Source: an uncultured Paracoccus sp.
GTDB taxonomy: Bacteria; Pseudomonadota; Alphaproteobacteria; Rhodobacterales; Rhodobacteraceae
Length of the DNA: 64,000 bases
NCBI RefSeq assembly: GCF_945915435.1
Contig: NZ_CAMEFG010000009.1
Span: 1 to 64,000 of the forward strand
Direction: 5' to 3'
Under the pieces are notes generated by a model, which saw only the letters and a program-made list of their open reading frames with translations, was not told the origin of the DNA and did no database searches. The position numbers and the translations under genes were made by a program. Of this stretch, positions 2,092 to 8,914 are shown piece after piece (position 1 is the stretch's first letter; each line of letters starts with the position of its first letter).

Positions 2092-2696
2092 CAGATGGCG
2101 CGTAGCACCTTTATCAACTTGCGCCGTTCGTCGTCTGCCGATCCCACAAGCCCGTTGCGGTCGCACAGTGACAGATATTCACCCGCCCATTCCGGCGGGG
2201 TTTTGCCCGCTTCGCGAAACAGACGTTCGAGTTCTGCCGCCTTGTCGGCGTTGTCGCGGGCCAGTGCCGCCGCCAGCGTTAGCTGTTCAGGAAAGGCGAA
2301 CCCGCCAAGTCCGCGCTGAAACGCCTGAACCTCATCCGGTGACGGAACGCCCCCGTCGTGCCCGCCGTAGCGGTTTCTGATCCATCGGGTTAGTTTCTGT
2401 TCCCCCGGCGGGTGGTCCAGCCCGTCGCCGCGCAGATTGTTTGCCAGAACCTGCACCGACCACAGCCCCAACCGCTTGCCCCAGTCCGCCGCGCCAGCCA
2501 GTGCGGCCCGCTGCGCCCGCAAATCCCGTGAAAGGTTCCCTCTGCCGACAGGGGCAGCAGCCATGACACGCGCCAGAAGTGCCCGGCGGGGTTCATAGTC
2601 CAGCGAACAGGACGGCGTGTGTGCAAGATCGCGCTTCATTGCGGCAATGATCCCCTGCCAATCTTCGGCGGCCAGCTTGTTCTTTGCGCCCGTCAT
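2079..2696 (-). CDS. Hypothetical protein translationally coupled to the integrase
   Basis: This 205-residue soluble protein has no family I recognise. It is largely helical and Arg/Ala/Leu-rich, with no signal peptide, no membrane segment and no obvious enzymatic motif. Recognisable stretches include WGKRLGLWSVQVLANNLRG (about 92-110), RWIRNRYGGHDGG (about 124-136) and WAGEYLSLCDRNGLVG (about 170-185). Its ATG overlaps the integrase stop by four bases (ATGA), so the two are probably made together; it may regulate or assist integration, or be cargo. The stop codon sits inside a 10-bp inverted repeat. Confidence 0.7.
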   Translation of the reverse strand: MTGAKNKLAAEDWQGIIAAMKRDLAHTPSCSLDYEPRRALLARVMAAAPVGRGNLSRDLRAQRAALAGAADWGKRLGLWSVQVLANNLRGDGLDHPPGEQKLTRWIRNRYGGHDGGVPSPDEVQAFQRGLGGFAFPEQLTLAAALARDNADKAAELERLFREAGKTPPEWAGEYLSLCDRNGLVGSADDERRKLIKVLRAIWLTE

Positions 2697-4021
2697 CCCG
2701 TCACCCTTGATAGGGGGGCGATAGGCACCACGTTCGCGCTACCGTCCGCGTCGCCCCGGTCCAGCCGGGTAACGCCCTTGTCGATCCACCCCGCCCATGT
2801 CTGCATCAGCTTGCGTCGCTTGGTCAGGTGGCCGGTGCGCAGGTAGGCCGCTTCCACCTTGTCGGCATTGACATGGGCCAGCGCCGCCTCGGCAATCTCA
2901 CGGGGAAAACTGGTCTGTTCCGCGCACCAGTCACGGAAGGCCGACCGAAGCCCGTGCATGGTCGTCCGGTCCCGCCAGCCCATGCGGTCCAGCAGGACCA
3001 GCATCGCCATGTTTGATAACCCCACGGGTTTACCGCCCTTCCAGCGCGGGGCGGGAAAGATCGGCGCATCCGCTGCACCTCCGGTCAGCGGCTTGGCCCT
3101 TTCAAGAAGGGTGATGGCCTGCGGCACCAGCGGCACGACATGTTCACGCCCGGCCTTCATCCGCGACGCGGGCACCCGCCAGACCGGCCCGCCTTCCGCC
3201 TGCATTTCGATCTCGCCCCACGTCGCCCCGATCACTTCCCCGGTGCGGGCGGCGGTCAGCACCAGCCATTCCGCCGCCAGCGCCGCGACGCTGTCGCCCT
3301 GCCGCGCCCGAAGGGCATGAACGAACGCAGGCACATCCTTCCACGACAGCGCCCGCTGGTGGATCACACGGGCGGCCTTGGGCATGGCCCCCAGCAAAGG
3401 TTCAAGCCCTCCCTTCCAGATCGCCGGGTTGGGGTCTGTGCGGTCGCCTGCGGCAATGGCGGCATCCATCACCCTTTCGATCCGCCCGCGCAGCCGGGTC
3501 GCGGTCTCGGGCTTCTTGCGCCAGATCGGTTCCAGCACCGCCAGAACATCCGCCCGCGTGACCTGTGCCACGGGCTTGTCGCCCAGCGCAGCGGCATCCT
3601 TGAGAAGTGTAGCCCGCCACTGGTAACGATGCTTGGCGTTGCGCCAAGCGTGCTCATGCGTCGCGATGTAGCGTTCCGCCCATAGCGCGAAGGTTGCCGC
3701 CTTCACCCTTTTTCTTTCCTGTTCGGCTTCGGCCTGCGCTTCCCGCGCTGCGTCACGCTTGTCGATTGGATCGAAACCATGCGCCAGATGGTCACGCGCC
3801 GCAGCGGCCAGCTGTCGGGCGTCCACCAGCGCAACGCCGCCCTTACCGGCAACGCCAAGCCCCATTTCCCGGCGACGTCCTGCCGGGCTGGTATAGATGA
3901 ACGACCACTTGCGCCGCCCGTCCTGTGCGACGATCAGGTAAAGCCCGCCGCCGTCGCTGTGCTTTCCTGCTGCCGCTGTCTCGACCGTTCGGGCGGTCAG
4001 CCGGTTTAATGTTCGGGCCAT
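2693..4021 (-). CDS. int: Tyrosine-type site-specific integrase with DUF4102 arm-binding domain
   Basis: The 442-residue protein is a P4-family integrase that inserts and excises the element, usually at a tRNA or tmRNA 3' end. The N-terminal DUF4102-type domain (about 1-95) includes HSDGGGLYLIVAQDGRRKWSFIY. A SAM-like core-binding region covers about 100-210. The catalytic domain shows the first Arg in LVLTAARTGEVIGATW, a Lys in RMKAGREHVVPL, HGLRSAFRDWCAEQ (the HxxR pair), a second His in ALAHVNADKVEAAY, and the nucleophilic Tyr in VEAAYLRTGHLTKRRKLMQTWAGW. Every catalytic residue is present, so it looks functional. It reads away from the presumed element end at 4.1-4.3 kb. Confidence 0.95.
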   Translation of the reverse strand: MARTLNRLTARTVETAAAGKHSDGGGLYLIVAQDGRRKWSFIYTSPAGRRREMGLGVAGKGGVALVDARQLAAAARDHLAHGFDPIDKRDAAREAQAEAEQERKRVKAATFALWAERYIATHEHAWRNAKHRYQWRATLLKDAAALGDKPVAQVTRADVLAVLEPIWRKKPETATRLRGRIERVMDAAIAAGDRTDPNPAIWKGGLEPLLGAMPKAARVIHQRALSWKDVPAFVHALRARQGDSVAALAAEWLVLTAARTGEVIGATWGEIEMQAEGGPVWRVPASRMKAGREHVVPLVPQAITLLERAKPLTGGAADAPIFPAPRWKGGKPVGLSNMAMLVLLDRMGWRDRTTMHGLRSAFRDWCAEQTSFPREIAEAALAHVNADKVEAAYLRTGHLTKRRKLMQTWAGWIDKGVTRLDRGDADGSANVVPIAPLSRVTG

Positions 4022-4110: not shown

Positions 4111-4245
4111 ATTATGCTGCGATCTGGTGAGAGGTCAAGAGTCTGCACGAGACAGTATCGGAGTATAAACTACAGATAAACATAAATATTAATGAGTTTT
4201 AAGATGCCGCCTGCGATAATAGGAAACATCAGTGTGGCGGACCTC

Positions 4246-4255
4246 GGCTCCACCA
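4246..4255 (+). other. Candidate attachment-core remnant (tRNA/tmRNA 3'-end-like sequence)
   Basis: GGCTCCACCA is identical to the way many tmRNA and some tRNA genes end, but no T-arm or acceptor partner precedes it, so it is not itself an RNA gene. It lies between the integrase and the first chromosomal gene, where a duplicated integration core would be expected. Ten bases can occur by chance. Confidence 0.3.
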
Positions 4256-4350
4256 GTTCCATCCCCCGCGATCCCGGAAAACTTGCGCTTGTGGTTGGGC
4301 TTGGCCATGCTGGGCCATATTGCAGTGCATTTTCAAAAAGGGGGACGACC

Positions 4351-6087
4351 ATGACGATGATTTCCCGATTCCGGCTGTCCGGCGCGGCGGGTTTGCTGGC
4401 GGCGCTGTCCATGCCCGCCGCGGCGCAAGAGGCCGCGATCTATTCCGGCATGGACCGCGTTCATCCGGTCTGGGCCGAGAACGGCATGGTGTCGGCCCAG
4501 GAACAACTCGCGGCCGAGATCGGACGCGATATCCTGGCCCAGGGCGGCAATGCCGTCGATGCGGGCATCGCGGTCGCCTTCGCGCTGGCCGTGACCCTGC
4601 CGCGCGCGGGCAATCTGGGCGGGGGCGGCTTCATGCTGGTCCATGACGCCGAAAGTGGCGAAACCCACGCCATCGATTATCGCGAGATGGCCCCGGCGGG
4701 CGCGACCCGCGACATGTTCCTTGACGCCGAGGGCAATGCCGACAGCGAGCTGTCGCGCTATTCCGGCGCGGCCTCGGGCGTGCCGGGGACGGTGGCGGGG
4801 ATGAAGCTGGTCCATGACGAATACGGCTCGATGGACTGGGCCGAGATCGTCGCCCCCGCGATCCGCTTGGCCGAGGAAGGCATCACCGTCACCCCCGACC
4901 TGGCCGACAGCCTTGAGGCGATGCAGGAACGGCTGACACATTATCCTTCGGCTGCCAGGATCTTCTACAAGGAAGGGGGCGAGTTCTATCGCCCCGGCGA
5001 CACGCTGGTTCAGGCCGATCTGGCCAATACGCTGCGAAAGATCGCCGAGGAAGGCCCGGACGGTTTCTATCGCGGCGAGGTGGCCGAGGCCATCGCCCGC
5101 GCCGTCACCGAGGCGGGCGGCGACATGACCACCGAGGACCTGGCGAACTACCGCGCCGTCACGCGCGAGCCGGTGCGCGGCACCTATCGCGGATATGAAA
5201 TCGTCTCGATGCCGCCGCCGTCCTCGGGCGGCATCCACCTGATCCAGATCCTGAACGCGCTGGAGGGCTATCCCATCGGCGCGCTTGGCGAGAATTCGTC
5301 CGAGACGATCCACCTGATGGCCGAGGCGATGAAGATCGCCTATGCCGACCGCTCGGAATATCTGGGCGACCCGGATTTCGTCGATGTGCCGGTGGATGCG
5401 CTGACCGGCAAGGATTACGCCGCCGAGATGCGCGCCCGCATCAACACAGGCTTCGCGACGCCTTCGGAACTGATCCGCCCCGCCGATCTGGCGCCTTACG
5501 AATCCGACCAGACGACGCATTATTCGATCATCGACAAGGACGGGAACGCGGTCTCGAACACCTACACGATCAACTTTTCCTATGGGTCGGGGCTGGTGGC
5601 CGAGGGCACGGGCGTGCTGATGAACAACGAGATGGACGACTTTTCCGCCAAGCCCGGCGTGCCCAATGCCTACGGGCTGATCGGCGGCGATGCCAATGCA
5701 GTCGAGGCGGGCAAGCGCCCGCTGTCCTCGATGACGCCGACGCTGGTTCTGCGCGATGGCGAGATCTGGCTGGTCACCGGCTCGCCCGGCGGGGCGCGGA
5801 TCATCACCACGGTCTTGCAGGTCGTGATGAACATGATCGACCACGGCATGAACGTGGCCGAGGCCAGCCATGCCCCGCGCATCCATCACCAATGGCTGCC
5901 CGATGAGCTGCGCATCGAACAGGGCATCAGCCTTGACACGCAGCGCGCGCTTCAGGCCAAGGGGCACCGGCTGTCACTGGAAGAGGTCATGGGTTCGACC
6001 CAATCGGTCATGCGCGACCCGGAAAGCGGCGTCCTGCTGGGCGCCTCGGACCCCCGGCGGGCGGGTGCTGCGACGGTGGGTTACTGA
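4351..6087 (+). CDS. ggt: Periplasmic gamma-glutamyltransferase (glutathione hydrolase)
   Basis: The 578-residue precursor transfers or hydrolyses the gamma-glutamyl group of glutathione and related compounds in the periplasm. I start at 4351 (GGGGGACGACC before the ATG), not at the 4192 of the ORF track, because this gives a signal peptide (ISRFRLSGAAGLLAALSMPAAAQ). The large subunit contains GNAVDAGIAVAFALAV and GNLGGGGFM. The autoprocessing site TTHYSIID places the nucleophilic Thr at residue 388, and MNNEMDDFS, PLSSMTPT and GSPGG follow in the small subunit. Length and motifs match the family, so it should self-cleave and be active. It stands alone; its own stem-loop terminator follows. 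Confidence 0.96.
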   Translation: MTMISRFRLSGAAGLLAALSMPAAAQEAAIYSGMDRVHPVWAENGMVSAQEQLAAEIGRDILAQGGNAVDAGIAVAFALAVTLPRAGNLGGGGFMLVHDAESGETHAIDYREMAPAGATRDMFLDAEGNADSELSRYSGAASGVPGTVAGMKLVHDEYGSMDWAEIVAPAIRLAEEGITVTPDLADSLEAMQERLTHYPSAARIFYKEGGEFYRPGDTLVQADLANTLRKIAEEGPDGFYRGEVAEAIARAVTEAGGDMTTEDLANYRAVTREPVRGTYRGYEIVSMPPPSSGGIHLIQILNALEGYPIGALGENSSETIHLMAEAMKIAYADRSEYLGDPDFVDVPVDALTGKDYAAEMRARINTGFATPSELIRPADLAPYESDQTTHYSIIDKDGNAVSNTYTINFSYGSGLVAEGTGVLMNNEMDDFSAKPGVPNAYGLIGGDANAVEAGKRPLSSMTPTLVLRDGEIWLVTGSPGGARIITTVLQVVMNMIDHGMNVAEASHAPRIHHQWLPDELRIEQGISLDTQRALQAKGHRLSLEEVMGSTQSVMRDPESGVLLGASDPRRAGAATVGY

Positions 6088-6175: not shown

Positions 6176-6799
6176 CTATGCGGCAAGCCGCAGCAGAATG
6201 GCCACCCGCGCCGCTTCGGCGCGGTTGTTGATGCCCAGCTTGCGGTAGAGTTCCTTGATGTAATGGCTGACCGTATGTTCGGAAATTTCCAGCGCCAAGG
6301 CGATCGAGCCGGTGCGTTCGCCCTGCCCCAGCAGCGACAGGACCTGCTTTTCGCGGCGTGAAAGATGGACATCGGGCGCCTCGCCCGCGGGGACCGGCCC
6401 GCCGCGCAGGCGATGGGTGAAGGCCAGCGTATTCTCGATCTTCAGATGCAGCAGGTCCAGGTCGATGGGCTTGGTCAGGTAGTCGATAGCCCCGGCGCGC
6501 AGCCCCTTCAACTGCGGCTCACGCGAGGACAGGGCAGTCAGGAAGATGAAGGCGGTCGTTTCGGCCAGCCTGTCCGATCCGCGCAACCCCTCCAGCAGTT
6601 CAAAGCCGTTGCGGTCGGGCAGCATGACGTCGCAAAGCACGATATCGGGGCAATGTCGGGACAGGATGGCCTCGGCCTCGGCGCTGCTTTGCGCGGTCAG
6701 AACCTTGTGGCCGCGCGCGGTCAGTTCCTCTTCCAGCTCTTCCAGCAGGAAACGCTCATCCTCGACGCAAAGGATCGTCCCCGTTATCCGCGCGCTCAT
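6176..6799 (-). CDS. Response regulator, receiver plus LuxR/NarL-type DNA-binding domain
   Basis: This 207-residue regulator is the output partner of the histidine kinase gene it overlaps by 44 bases. The receiver domain (about 8-125) has the acidic pair ED (13-14), the phospho-acceptor Asp57 in IVLCDVMLPD, and Lys in YLTKPID. The C-terminal LuxR-type HTH (about 145-205) reads LSRREKQVLSLLGQGERTGSIALALEISEHTVSHYIKELYRKLGI. I start at MSARITG (6799), which has a GGGGGAC ribosome-binding site; the extra 28 residues in the track have no start support. Target genes are not evident from the window, though palindromes upstream of the operon are candidates. Confidence 0.92.
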   Translation of the reverse strand: MSARITGTILCVEDERFLLEELEEELTARGHKVLTAQSSAEAEAILSRHCPDIVLCDVMLPDRNGFELLEGLRGSDRLAETTAFIFLTALSSREPQLKGLRAGAIDYLTKPIDLDLLHLKIENTLAFTHRLRGGPVPAGEAPDVHLSRREKQVLSLLGQGERTGSIALALEISEHTVSHYIKELYRKLGINNRAEAARVAILLRLAA

Positions 6800-8177
6800 C
6801 CGTATTGTCCCCCAGGGCGGGCAAAGCGACGATGAACATGGTCCCCTCACCCATATGCGAAGTGAACGTGATCTCGCCATCATGCAGCGAAACGATGTCG
6901 CGGGCCAGACTTAACCCGACTCCGACACCCGGCAATGTATGGGCATTTGGCGCGCGATAGAACCTGTCGAAAACAGCAGCTTGTGCGCTTTCGGGGATGC
7001 CCAGCCCCTGATCGCCGACGCGGCAGAGGACGCGCGTGCCTTCCCGCCATGTTTCCAGCAGGACAGGGGCGGGGGCATGGGAATATTTCATCGCATTGGA
7101 CAGAAGGTTCAGCACCACCTGTTCCAGCAGCACCGGATCGCCGTCGACGGGCAGCGGCGTTTCGGACAGGCAGATATCCAGAATTCGCCCCGGATCCGCC
7201 TCTTGCGTCTGCGCGGCGGCGGTTTCGGCGATCTGGTTGAAATCCACGGTGCGGCGCGACAGGGTGATGGCCTGCCCCTCGCTGCTGACGGAATGAAGAA
7301 AGCCGCTCAGCAGCCGTTCCAACCGCTGCGCGGCATCCAGGATGCGGCTGAACTTGGGCTGAAGCCCCTCGGGCAGGCTGGCCGCGTTGTTGCGCAATTG
7401 CCGCTGCGCGATCATGTGGATGATCGAGACCGGCGTGCGGAACTGATGCGAGACGGTGACGATGAAACTGCGGTAGACTTCCTTGCTGCGGCGCTCGGCC
7501 TCCAGCAGGTCGCGCAATTCGCTGGTGCGCGCGGCCACGGTTTCCTCAAGCTGGGCGCGGTGCAGGGTCAATTCCTCTTGCGTGCGCATCACGCGGCGCA
7601 TGTTGCGCCACAAAAGCCCCGCCATGACCATGCCCATCGCAAAGACGCCGAACACGGCCAGCAGCAGCAGGCGAAAGGCGTGCAGCATCTCTTCGCGCCG
7701 GTCGTGCCGGTCGAGGCGGCCGTCCTGCATCGCGGCCAGCGCGATGTCATGCACGACCGAGGAAAGCGCGATGGTGGGCTGGATCAGGGTCACGATTTCC
7801 GCGAAGTCCAGGTTGTCGGCTAGGATCGTCTGGTCCAGGTCGTCCAGCATGGCCTGCGCCTGCCTGACCTGATCGCCCGCCCCGATCGACTGGAAATATT
7901 CCGCCTGCGGCTGGTCCATCATCAGCCCGACGCGGCTATAGAGGATGTCGAAACGTAGCAGGACATCGTCGATATTGCGGTCAAGGCTGACGCGATAGAG
8001 GGTCAGCAGCAGGTTCTGCGCCTCGCGATCCGCCTGCGTGGCGACCCAGAGGTTCGTCTCGACGGCATCCATGCGAAAGGCCCGGTCGATATTGACAAGC
8101 TGGATCAGCGAGTAGGCGAACAGGACGATGAAGCTCGCGAAGGTCGCAAGCGCAAGGTAAGAGCCTTTCAGCGGCAT
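6756..8177 (-). CDS. Membrane-bound sensor histidine kinase
   Basis: The 473-residue kinase has two transmembrane helices (about 8-28 and 170-190) that flank a helical periplasmic sensor of about 140 residues. Next come a short coiled linker (TLHRAQLEETVAARTSELRDLLEAERR), the H-box VSHQFRTPVSIIHM with His244, and an HATPase domain with N-box NLLSNAMKYS, G1 VGDQGLGIP and G2 GVGVGLSLARDI. It is orthodox, with no PAS or receiver domain. Its ATG overlaps the stop of the upstream SUOX-like gene by one base, so the exported protein is probably its signal-sensing partner. The periplasmic domain resembles no family I can name. Confidence 0.92.
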   Translation of the reverse strand: MPLKGSYLALATFASFIVLFAYSLIQLVNIDRAFRMDAVETNLWVATQADREAQNLLLTLYRVSLDRNIDDVLLRFDILYSRVGLMMDQPQAEYFQSIGAGDQVRQAQAMLDDLDQTILADNLDFAEIVTLIQPTIALSSVVHDIALAAMQDGRLDRHDRREEMLHAFRLLLLAVFGVFAMGMVMAGLLWRNMRRVMRTQEELTLHRAQLEETVAARTSELRDLLEAERRSKEVYRSFIVTVSHQFRTPVSIIHMIAQRQLRNNAASLPEGLQPKFSRILDAAQRLERLLSGFLHSVSSEGQAITLSRRTVDFNQIAETAAAQTQEADPGRILDICLSETPLPVDGDPVLLEQVVLNLLSNAMKYSHAPAPVLLETWREGTRVLCRVGDQGLGIPESAQAAVFDRFYRAPNAHTLPGVGVGLSLARDIVSLHDGEITFTSHMGEGTMFIVALPALGDNTDERADNGDDPLRRG

Positions 8178-8692
8178 CAGACGACGTCGATTTCGAACAG
8201 TTGCCAGATCCAGCGTGCATCCATCGAAGAGTTTTGCAACTCGATCCGCTGATCGCGCGGAAAGACCAGCCAGATCGGCCCCTTGTCGCGCACCCGCATC
8301 CGCTTGCCGTTCATCTCGCAGGCAAGGATGGGCTGGAAGTTCCAGGCATCGTCGGCGGGCATGACCATCCCGAAATCGTTGAGCGCCCGCATCAGCAGGT
8401 TGTGCCCGGCGAAATCGGCCCGGGACATGCCGCCGCTGGTCAGAACGTCGGTCAGATAGGGTCCGCGAAAACTCTGGACACCTTCGGTCCAGCGCGTATG
8501 CGTGTCGATCCGTTGCCAGGGCAGGGCTTCGATATCCTCGGTCGTCAGTTCCCTGACGGTGCCGGAAGGCTCTTTGATCGTCAGCATGGGCCGCGATCGG
8601 GCAAGGACCGGCAAGGCGGGCAGCAGGGCGGCGGCGGCCCCGGCCATGACAACGGCCCTTCTGCTGACGGTCGGCTTTGGCGGGCGGGACAT
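8177..8692 (-). CDS. Tat-exported SUOX-fold (oxidoreductase molybdopterin-binding-like) protein
   Basis: The 171-residue protein begins with a twin-arginine signal (SRRAVVMAGAAAALLPALPVLA). The start at 8692 has an AAGAAGG ribosome-binding site; the longer ORF has none. The rest matches the small sulfite-oxidase-fold group: LPWQRIDTHTRWTEGVQSFRGPYL, MRALNDFGMVMPADDAW and ILACEMNGKRMRVRDKGPIWLVFP, ending in a W-rich strand. The loop that normally offers a Cys ligand to molybdenum has none; the only Cys of the mature protein is in ILACEMNG. It may therefore bind no active Moco centre and act as a periplasmic sensor subunit. It heads a three-gene operon with the kinase and regulator. Confidence 0.8.
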   Translation of the reverse strand: MSRPPKPTVSRRAVVMAGAAAALLPALPVLARSRPMLTIKEPSGTVRELTTEDIEALPWQRIDTHTRWTEGVQSFRGPYLTDVLTSGGMSRADFAGHNLLMRALNDFGMVMPADDAWNFQPILACEMNGKRMRVRDKGPIWLVFPRDQRIELQNSSMDARWIWQLFEIDVV

Positions 8693-8720: not shown

Positions 8721-8763
8721 AAAAATATGATATGCGCGAACCGGCGTCCAGTCCGCGCATATC
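8721..8763 (-). terminator. Leader hairpin with U-tract before the SUOX/kinase operon (possible attenuator)
   Basis: A perfect 10-bp inverted repeat, GATATGCGCG / CGCGCATATC with a 15-nt loop, is followed on the minus strand by ATATTTTTTC. This is the classic layout of an intrinsic terminator, yet it lies only about 35 bases upstream of the start codon of the first gene. It could serve as an attenuator, or end read-through from upstream. Confidence 0.5.
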
Positions 8764-8892: not shown

Positions 8893-8914
8893 CATTCCCC
8901 AAAATCGGGGAATG
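8893..8914. promoter_or_regulatory. 8-bp palindrome upstream of the operon
   Basis: CATTCCCC and GGGGAATG flank a 6-nt spacer. No U-tract follows in either direction, so it is more likely a dimeric regulator site, or a weak end for tRNA-Pro transcripts, than a strong terminator. Confidence 0.35.

Follow-up and report, generated by a model that had tools for sequence, protein, structure and literature searches.

A window of 64,000 nucleotides (the whole stretch of Paracoccus DNA analysed here) carries on its minus strand three joined genes that raise a question: what is the role of an exported protein with the SUOX fold, devoid of the cysteine that should hold the molybdenum cofactor (Moco), when its gene is joined to those for a histidine kinase and for a regulator of transcription? 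The pruR-type gene (8177..8692, minus strand, 171 aa) overlaps by 1 base a gene for a sensor histidine kinase of the DTB type (6756..8177, minus strand, 473 aa), whose end overlaps by 44 bases the start of the gene for a REC-LuxR (NarL/FixJ-type) response regulator (6176..6799, minus strand, 207 aa); the coordinates agree with the two overlaps described in an earlier, sequence-only reading of this DNA. An alternative start of the regulator at 6883 is offered by the ORF-tool extension, but the short one at 6799 is likelier, since the orthologues in two other loci (L031 and L032) have 210-213 aa. As detailed below, the operon is likely to be a pterin-responsive two-component system of the PruR-DTB type, whose LuxR regulator would control at least its own operon.

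Family, fold and pocket of the exported protein

The closest proteins of solved structure are PruRs: a phmmer search of the PDB matched 7kp2, 7rkb, 7kom and 7kos with E-values from 8e-19 to 9e-15, and the family profile matched 7kos, the PruR of Agrobacterium tumefaciens, at 6e-51, the matches to sulfite oxidases being far weaker. The SUOX fold proposed from the sequence is borne out by an AlphaFold2 model of the 171-aa protein (pLDDT 91), for which Foldseek ranks PruRs first, with E-values of about 1e-12 (3e-13 for 7kos) and target-normalised TM-scores of 0.83-0.88, and sulfite oxidases next, at 2e-6. The four PruR crystal structures that are the top matches for both sequence and fold come from A. 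tumefaciens, V. vulnificus, V. cholerae and K. pneumoniae (7kos, 7kom, 7kp2 and 7rkb); the last of these, a structure with neopterin, is among the Foldseek matches. The PF00174 score, which the earlier reading had suggested to examine along with structure databases, is 23.6 bits, just under the cut-off of 24.

PruRs are periplasmic proteins of about 170 aa, in which the Cys is replaced by Trp and tetrahydromonapterin is the preferred ligand (PMC13259868). The protein described here has an export signal, a size of ~170 aa and a match to solved PruRs above that to other SUOX-fold proteins; the Mo-ligating Cys and the full Moco pocket of SUOX molybdoenzymes (PF00174) are both missing. Indeed, columns 60-76, taken as the loop of the Moco-Cys region, are devoid of Cys in all 180 homologues, in keeping with the absence remarked on before, and W68, within this presumed loop, may be the Trp that replaces the Mo-ligating Cys. 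The sole Cys of the protein, C125 in the stretch ILAC125EMNG, had been indicated as the residue whose placement at the Moco site would argue against a sensor; it is found outside the Moco-Cys loop, in a column that varies among the 180 homologues, where Y, L, T, R or M are seen.

These data bear on the possibility of a small molybdenum enzyme, similar to sulfite oxidase or MsrP (YedY) (PF00174), whose presence in a kinase operon would be due to chance. The core of the SUOX fold is common to both, and the Tat-like signal and the weak PF00174 match also agree with an enzyme; however, this explanation is highly improbable, given the lack of the Moco-loop Cys throughout the homologues, a protein of half the size with a shortened pocket, the wide margin by which PruR structures are the closest (E 1e-12 versus 2e-6 for sulfite oxidase) and the coupling to operons for signalling proteins throughout the family; in addition, the truncated PruR pocket is unlikely to accommodate Moco (PMC13259868). 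The Moco enzyme was therefore rejected, on the missing Cys and the far weaker fold match to sulfite oxidase.

Conversely, sequence and predicted structure indicate that the 171-aa product is very probably a periplasmic pterin-binding protein of the PruR type, with a reduced pterin as its most likely ligand. In the alignment with 7kos, N105, F107 and W163 correspond to N102, Y104 and W160 of the A. tumefaciens protein (numbering as in PMC13259868); of the pocket residues, Asn and Trp are conserved, while the position of Tyr104 is occupied by Phe here and in 18/180 homologues. Phe for Tyr104 has been reported in PruRs, and Asn102 varies in some of them (PMC13259868). This variability of PruR pockets, including the Phe for Tyr in the present one, is a point against assignment to PruR-DTB and, together with the fact that pterin specificity has been measured in few PruRs, it could favour a sensor of something else, either a different small molecule bound in the SUOX pocket or the redox state through C125. 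Such a sensor seems quite unlikely: Asn and Trp of the pocket are retained, and a conserved thiol switch is not expected, since C125, as the only Cys, occupies a variable column, for which reason this switch was rejected. Thus, of the ligand or redox sensor envisaged by the sequence-only reading, the small ligand stands, most likely as a reduced pterin, and redox sensing via C125 does not.

In the pterin-sensing system preferred here, the protein would be exported by means of its Tat-like signal and would hold a small reduced pterin, similar to tetrahydromonapterin, in the shortened SUOX pocket in place of Moco. A candidate source of reduced pterin is encoded elsewhere in the genome, on contig C19, by a gene for a pteridine reductase-like SDR (1465-2268 of locus L172, minus strand); the product is PruA/FolM-like, its best NCBIfam match is PRK09134 and its sequence TGAGRRIG corresponds to the TGX3RXG motif.

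The histidine kinase and its periplasmic domain

The kinase comprises two TM helices, a periplasmic helical domain, a HisKA domain (HQFRTP; Pfam, 8e-8) and a HATPase_c domain (2e-22), with no receiver domain. The periplasmic part, of ~140 aa versus the ~190 given in PMC13259868, bears a WX7E motif (W44-X7-E52) and the sequence RFDILYSR (75-82); W44, Q48, S81 and R82 are invariant or nearly so in 36 kinases of this type. WX7E occurs within the first 130 residues in 56/73 of the plain and 63/79 of the hybrid kinases, as well as in 10/12 GGDEF partners, compared to a background rate of 134/2963 ORFs. Moreover, when N-terminal profiles are compared, PruR-linked plain kinases match PruR-linked GGDEF proteins (probability 98.8%, E 7.7e-17), whereas non-linked kinases give no match with the GGDEF set (0.9%) and align with the PruR-linked kinases only over the stretch that follows the periplasmic part. 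By this profile comparison, made with PruR-linked GGDEF proteins rather than with A. tumefaciens DcpA itself, the predicted sensor region of the kinase is a periplasmic domain of the DcpA type. The structure model of the sensor part is helical (pLDDT 89.5); a Foldseek search of the periplasmic model against the PDB gave no significant match, the nearest structures being LytS-N and NarQ (best E 0.07).

The PruR matches of the exported protein and the DcpA-type domain of the kinase support the earlier idea of a recruited periplasmic sensor that would signal through the kinase: the pterin-loaded PruR would dock on the WX7E-containing domain, and docking would shift the balance between kinase and phosphatase activities. 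In principle this resembles TorT-TorS and XylFII-LytS, where a soluble exported binding protein relays the state of its ligand to a helical sensor domain of a kinase; however, the binding protein described here has the SUOX fold instead of a periplasmic-binding-protein fold, and there is no family relation.

Relation to known systems and distribution of the operon

The sequence-only reading knew of no characterised system of this make-up, a statement that has to be corrected: PruR-DcpA is characterised, and pairs of PruR with a kinase containing a DcpA-type domain have been described under the name 'PruR-DTB', introduced in 2024 (PNAS) and reviewed in PMC13259868. The A. tumefaciens PruR-DcpA system and the present one have in common the PruR fold, the pocket residues, the adjacent gene order and, by the profile match with PruR-linked GGDEF proteins, the same periplasmic receiver domain; they differ in the output, which is a c-di-GMP synthase/phosphodiesterase for DcpA, and a histidine kinase with a transcription regulator here. 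All the testable features that define PruR-DTB, i.e. gene adjacency, the WX7E domain and the HisKA and HATPase domains, are present, but the kinase is short, without PAS or receiver domain, PruR has a twin-arginine signal, a dedicated REC-LuxR regulator belongs to the same operon and a clade-specific palindrome lies upstream. Thus, the association of PruR and kinase was already known, and what is added is a subclade of loci, here called triads, in which a Tat-like PruR and a plain kinase share their operon with a REC-LuxR regulator, together with the palindrome and, in Paracoccus, a leader hairpin. The review PMC13259868 makes no mention of a response regulator as partner of PruR-kinase pairs, although the primary paper of 2024 may describe one, and a transcriptional output for these pairs is not given in the accessible literature; the triad subclade, with its co-encoded LuxR-type regulator and its own palindrome, provides a testable handle on this output.

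In 60/61 loci from the same family, the gene that comes next downstream of pruR codes for a histidine kinase (plain in 21 and hybrid in 39), as it does in 73/81 named relatives; these two sets lean to near relatives because both consist of the best-scoring matches; in a phylum-wide sample (n=38), the next gene codes for a kinase in 19 cases, for a GGDEF protein in 11 and for neither in 8. The homologues are therefore not found apart from kinases, as would be expected if the protein had no sensor role according to the earlier reading, and their adjacency to kinases favours such a role. Plain kinases tend to be followed on the same strand by a gene for a receiver-domain protein (14/21 and 33/45 loci). 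Hybrid-kinase loci (L034-L090, e.g. L054, L062 and L066) show a divergent REC-LuxR gene just upstream of pruR, in 26/39 loci of the family set, and represent a second, differently arranged coupling of PruR and LuxR. One record, titled Nocardioides marinus DP1N28-1 (Actinobacteria; L129), contains a typical Rhodobacteraceae locus for PruR and hybrid kinase, resembling that of Leisingera (L157), and is probably a mislabelled or contaminated assembly.

Among the closest relatives, the triad is present in Paracoccus denitrificans DSM 413 (L092; 73-74% identity), a model organism, and in P. kondratievae, Szabonella, Pararhodobacter and Pseudogemmobacter; in the tree, 12/14 triad tips fall in one clade (support 0.97). 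An orthologue with at least 50% identity was found in 9/125 Paracoccus genomes, which suggests gain and loss, and in P. kondratievae the triad is located on a 460-kb replicon named as a plasmid. No gene beyond the three is common to the flanks of the 13 triad loci; the triad of P. denitrificans (9011-11729 of L092) is close to a methylamine-utilisation cluster, at the end with mauG/mauM/mauN-like genes, a position not shared by the other triad loci. In the window, a tyrosine-type integrase-like gene (2693-4021, minus strand) is close to the operon and, considered together with the patchy distribution in Paracoccus, it may mark an island. The same region contains a gamma-glutamyltransferase-like gene (4192-6087), within which ARAGORN places a tRNA-Thr (5833-5921, minus strand), probably a false call; the Rfam scan, in which tRNA scoring covered part of that interval, returned tRNA-Pro as its sole match.

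The Tat signal had been regarded in the sequence-only reading as a hallmark of folded cofactor proteins. A twin-arginine signal is indeed predicted in 13/13 distinct triad PruRs, but it is not a hallmark of the family, being found in 25/162 other PruRs by a lenient test on members that are not phylogenetically independent; hence, on predicted signals, it is a trait of the triad subclade and not general in PruR. Its consistent occurrence makes the route of reduced pterins into the periplasm testable. The regulator matches Response_reg (2e-22) and GerE (3e-17) in Pfam, as typical for the NarL/FixJ type, and its phospho-acceptor Asp (VLCDVMLP) and TKP lysine are intact, as seen in an alignment of 13 orthologues. 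In the proposed system, phosphate would be passed from the kinase to this co-encoded regulator.

Palindrome and leader hairpin upstream of pruR

The promoter region of pruR contains a palindrome with the consensus ATTCCCC-N6-GGGGAAT, present in the window as ATTCCCCGATTTTGGGGAAT (read on the minus strand; 8894..8913), 201 nt upstream of the pruR start, and considered a candidate operator. Allowing at most 2 mismatches, it occurs in 10/13 triad loci, in 0/163 other PruR loci and in 4/1300 shuffles; in the remaining 3/13 triad loci it is degenerate or absent, and the regulators of two triads that have no palindrome at their locus (L103 and L149) have altered recognition helices too. Five more Paracoccus orthologues, considered in addition to the triad loci just counted, have it in exact form, and within Paracoccus 9/9 orthologues have the site with at most 2 mismatches. 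The exact palindrome is found once in the whole source genome, upstream of pruR, and one or two copies per genome, including the pruR site, were found in the relatives searched. We read it, from its distribution, as the putative operator of the co-encoded REC-LuxR regulator, whose occupancy of the site would change upon phosphorylation, leading to control of at least its own operon.

A genome-wide regulon could not be delineated by means of the palindrome, since, apart from the exact pruR site and a 2-mismatch site on contig C82 among apparent phage-lysis genes, the sites with 2 mismatches are near the number expected by chance (12 versus 5 in the control). Palindrome sites after sucA in two Paracoccus have no counterpart in the source genome. 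For a LuxR-type regulator, a regulon of about one site per genome would be exceptionally small, and ~200 nt that include a structured leader separate the palindrome from pruR downstream of it; both facts could mean that pterin sensing is correct, but that the regulator has its targets elsewhere and the palindrome belongs to a different regulator. This explanation is rather doubtful, although it deserves some weight, as the palindrome is limited to loci with the LuxR regulator (10/13 versus 0/163) and tracks its recognition helix. Starting instead from the co-encoded regulator as the one acting at the palindrome, a speculative extension, with only a small chance of being correct, is that Tat exports a folded PruR already loaded with cytoplasmic pterin, which would report on that pool, and that the response would be a nearly private autoregulation through a single operator and the leader RNA.

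Between the palindrome and pruR, the terminator scan identified a 16-bp stem-loop (8729..8763, minus strand) with a folding energy of -27.7 kcal/mol, followed by ATATTTTTTC, which gives it a terminator- or attenuator-like appearance. In the comparison of 7 Paracoccus sequences, both sides have changed in 6/15 pairs and G-U pairs are kept; this covariation suggests that the stem-loop is probably an RNA structure. The U-run is not retained in P. denitrificans, so that a simple terminator is not established. Strong hairpins are also present in the pruR leaders of several other triad loci.
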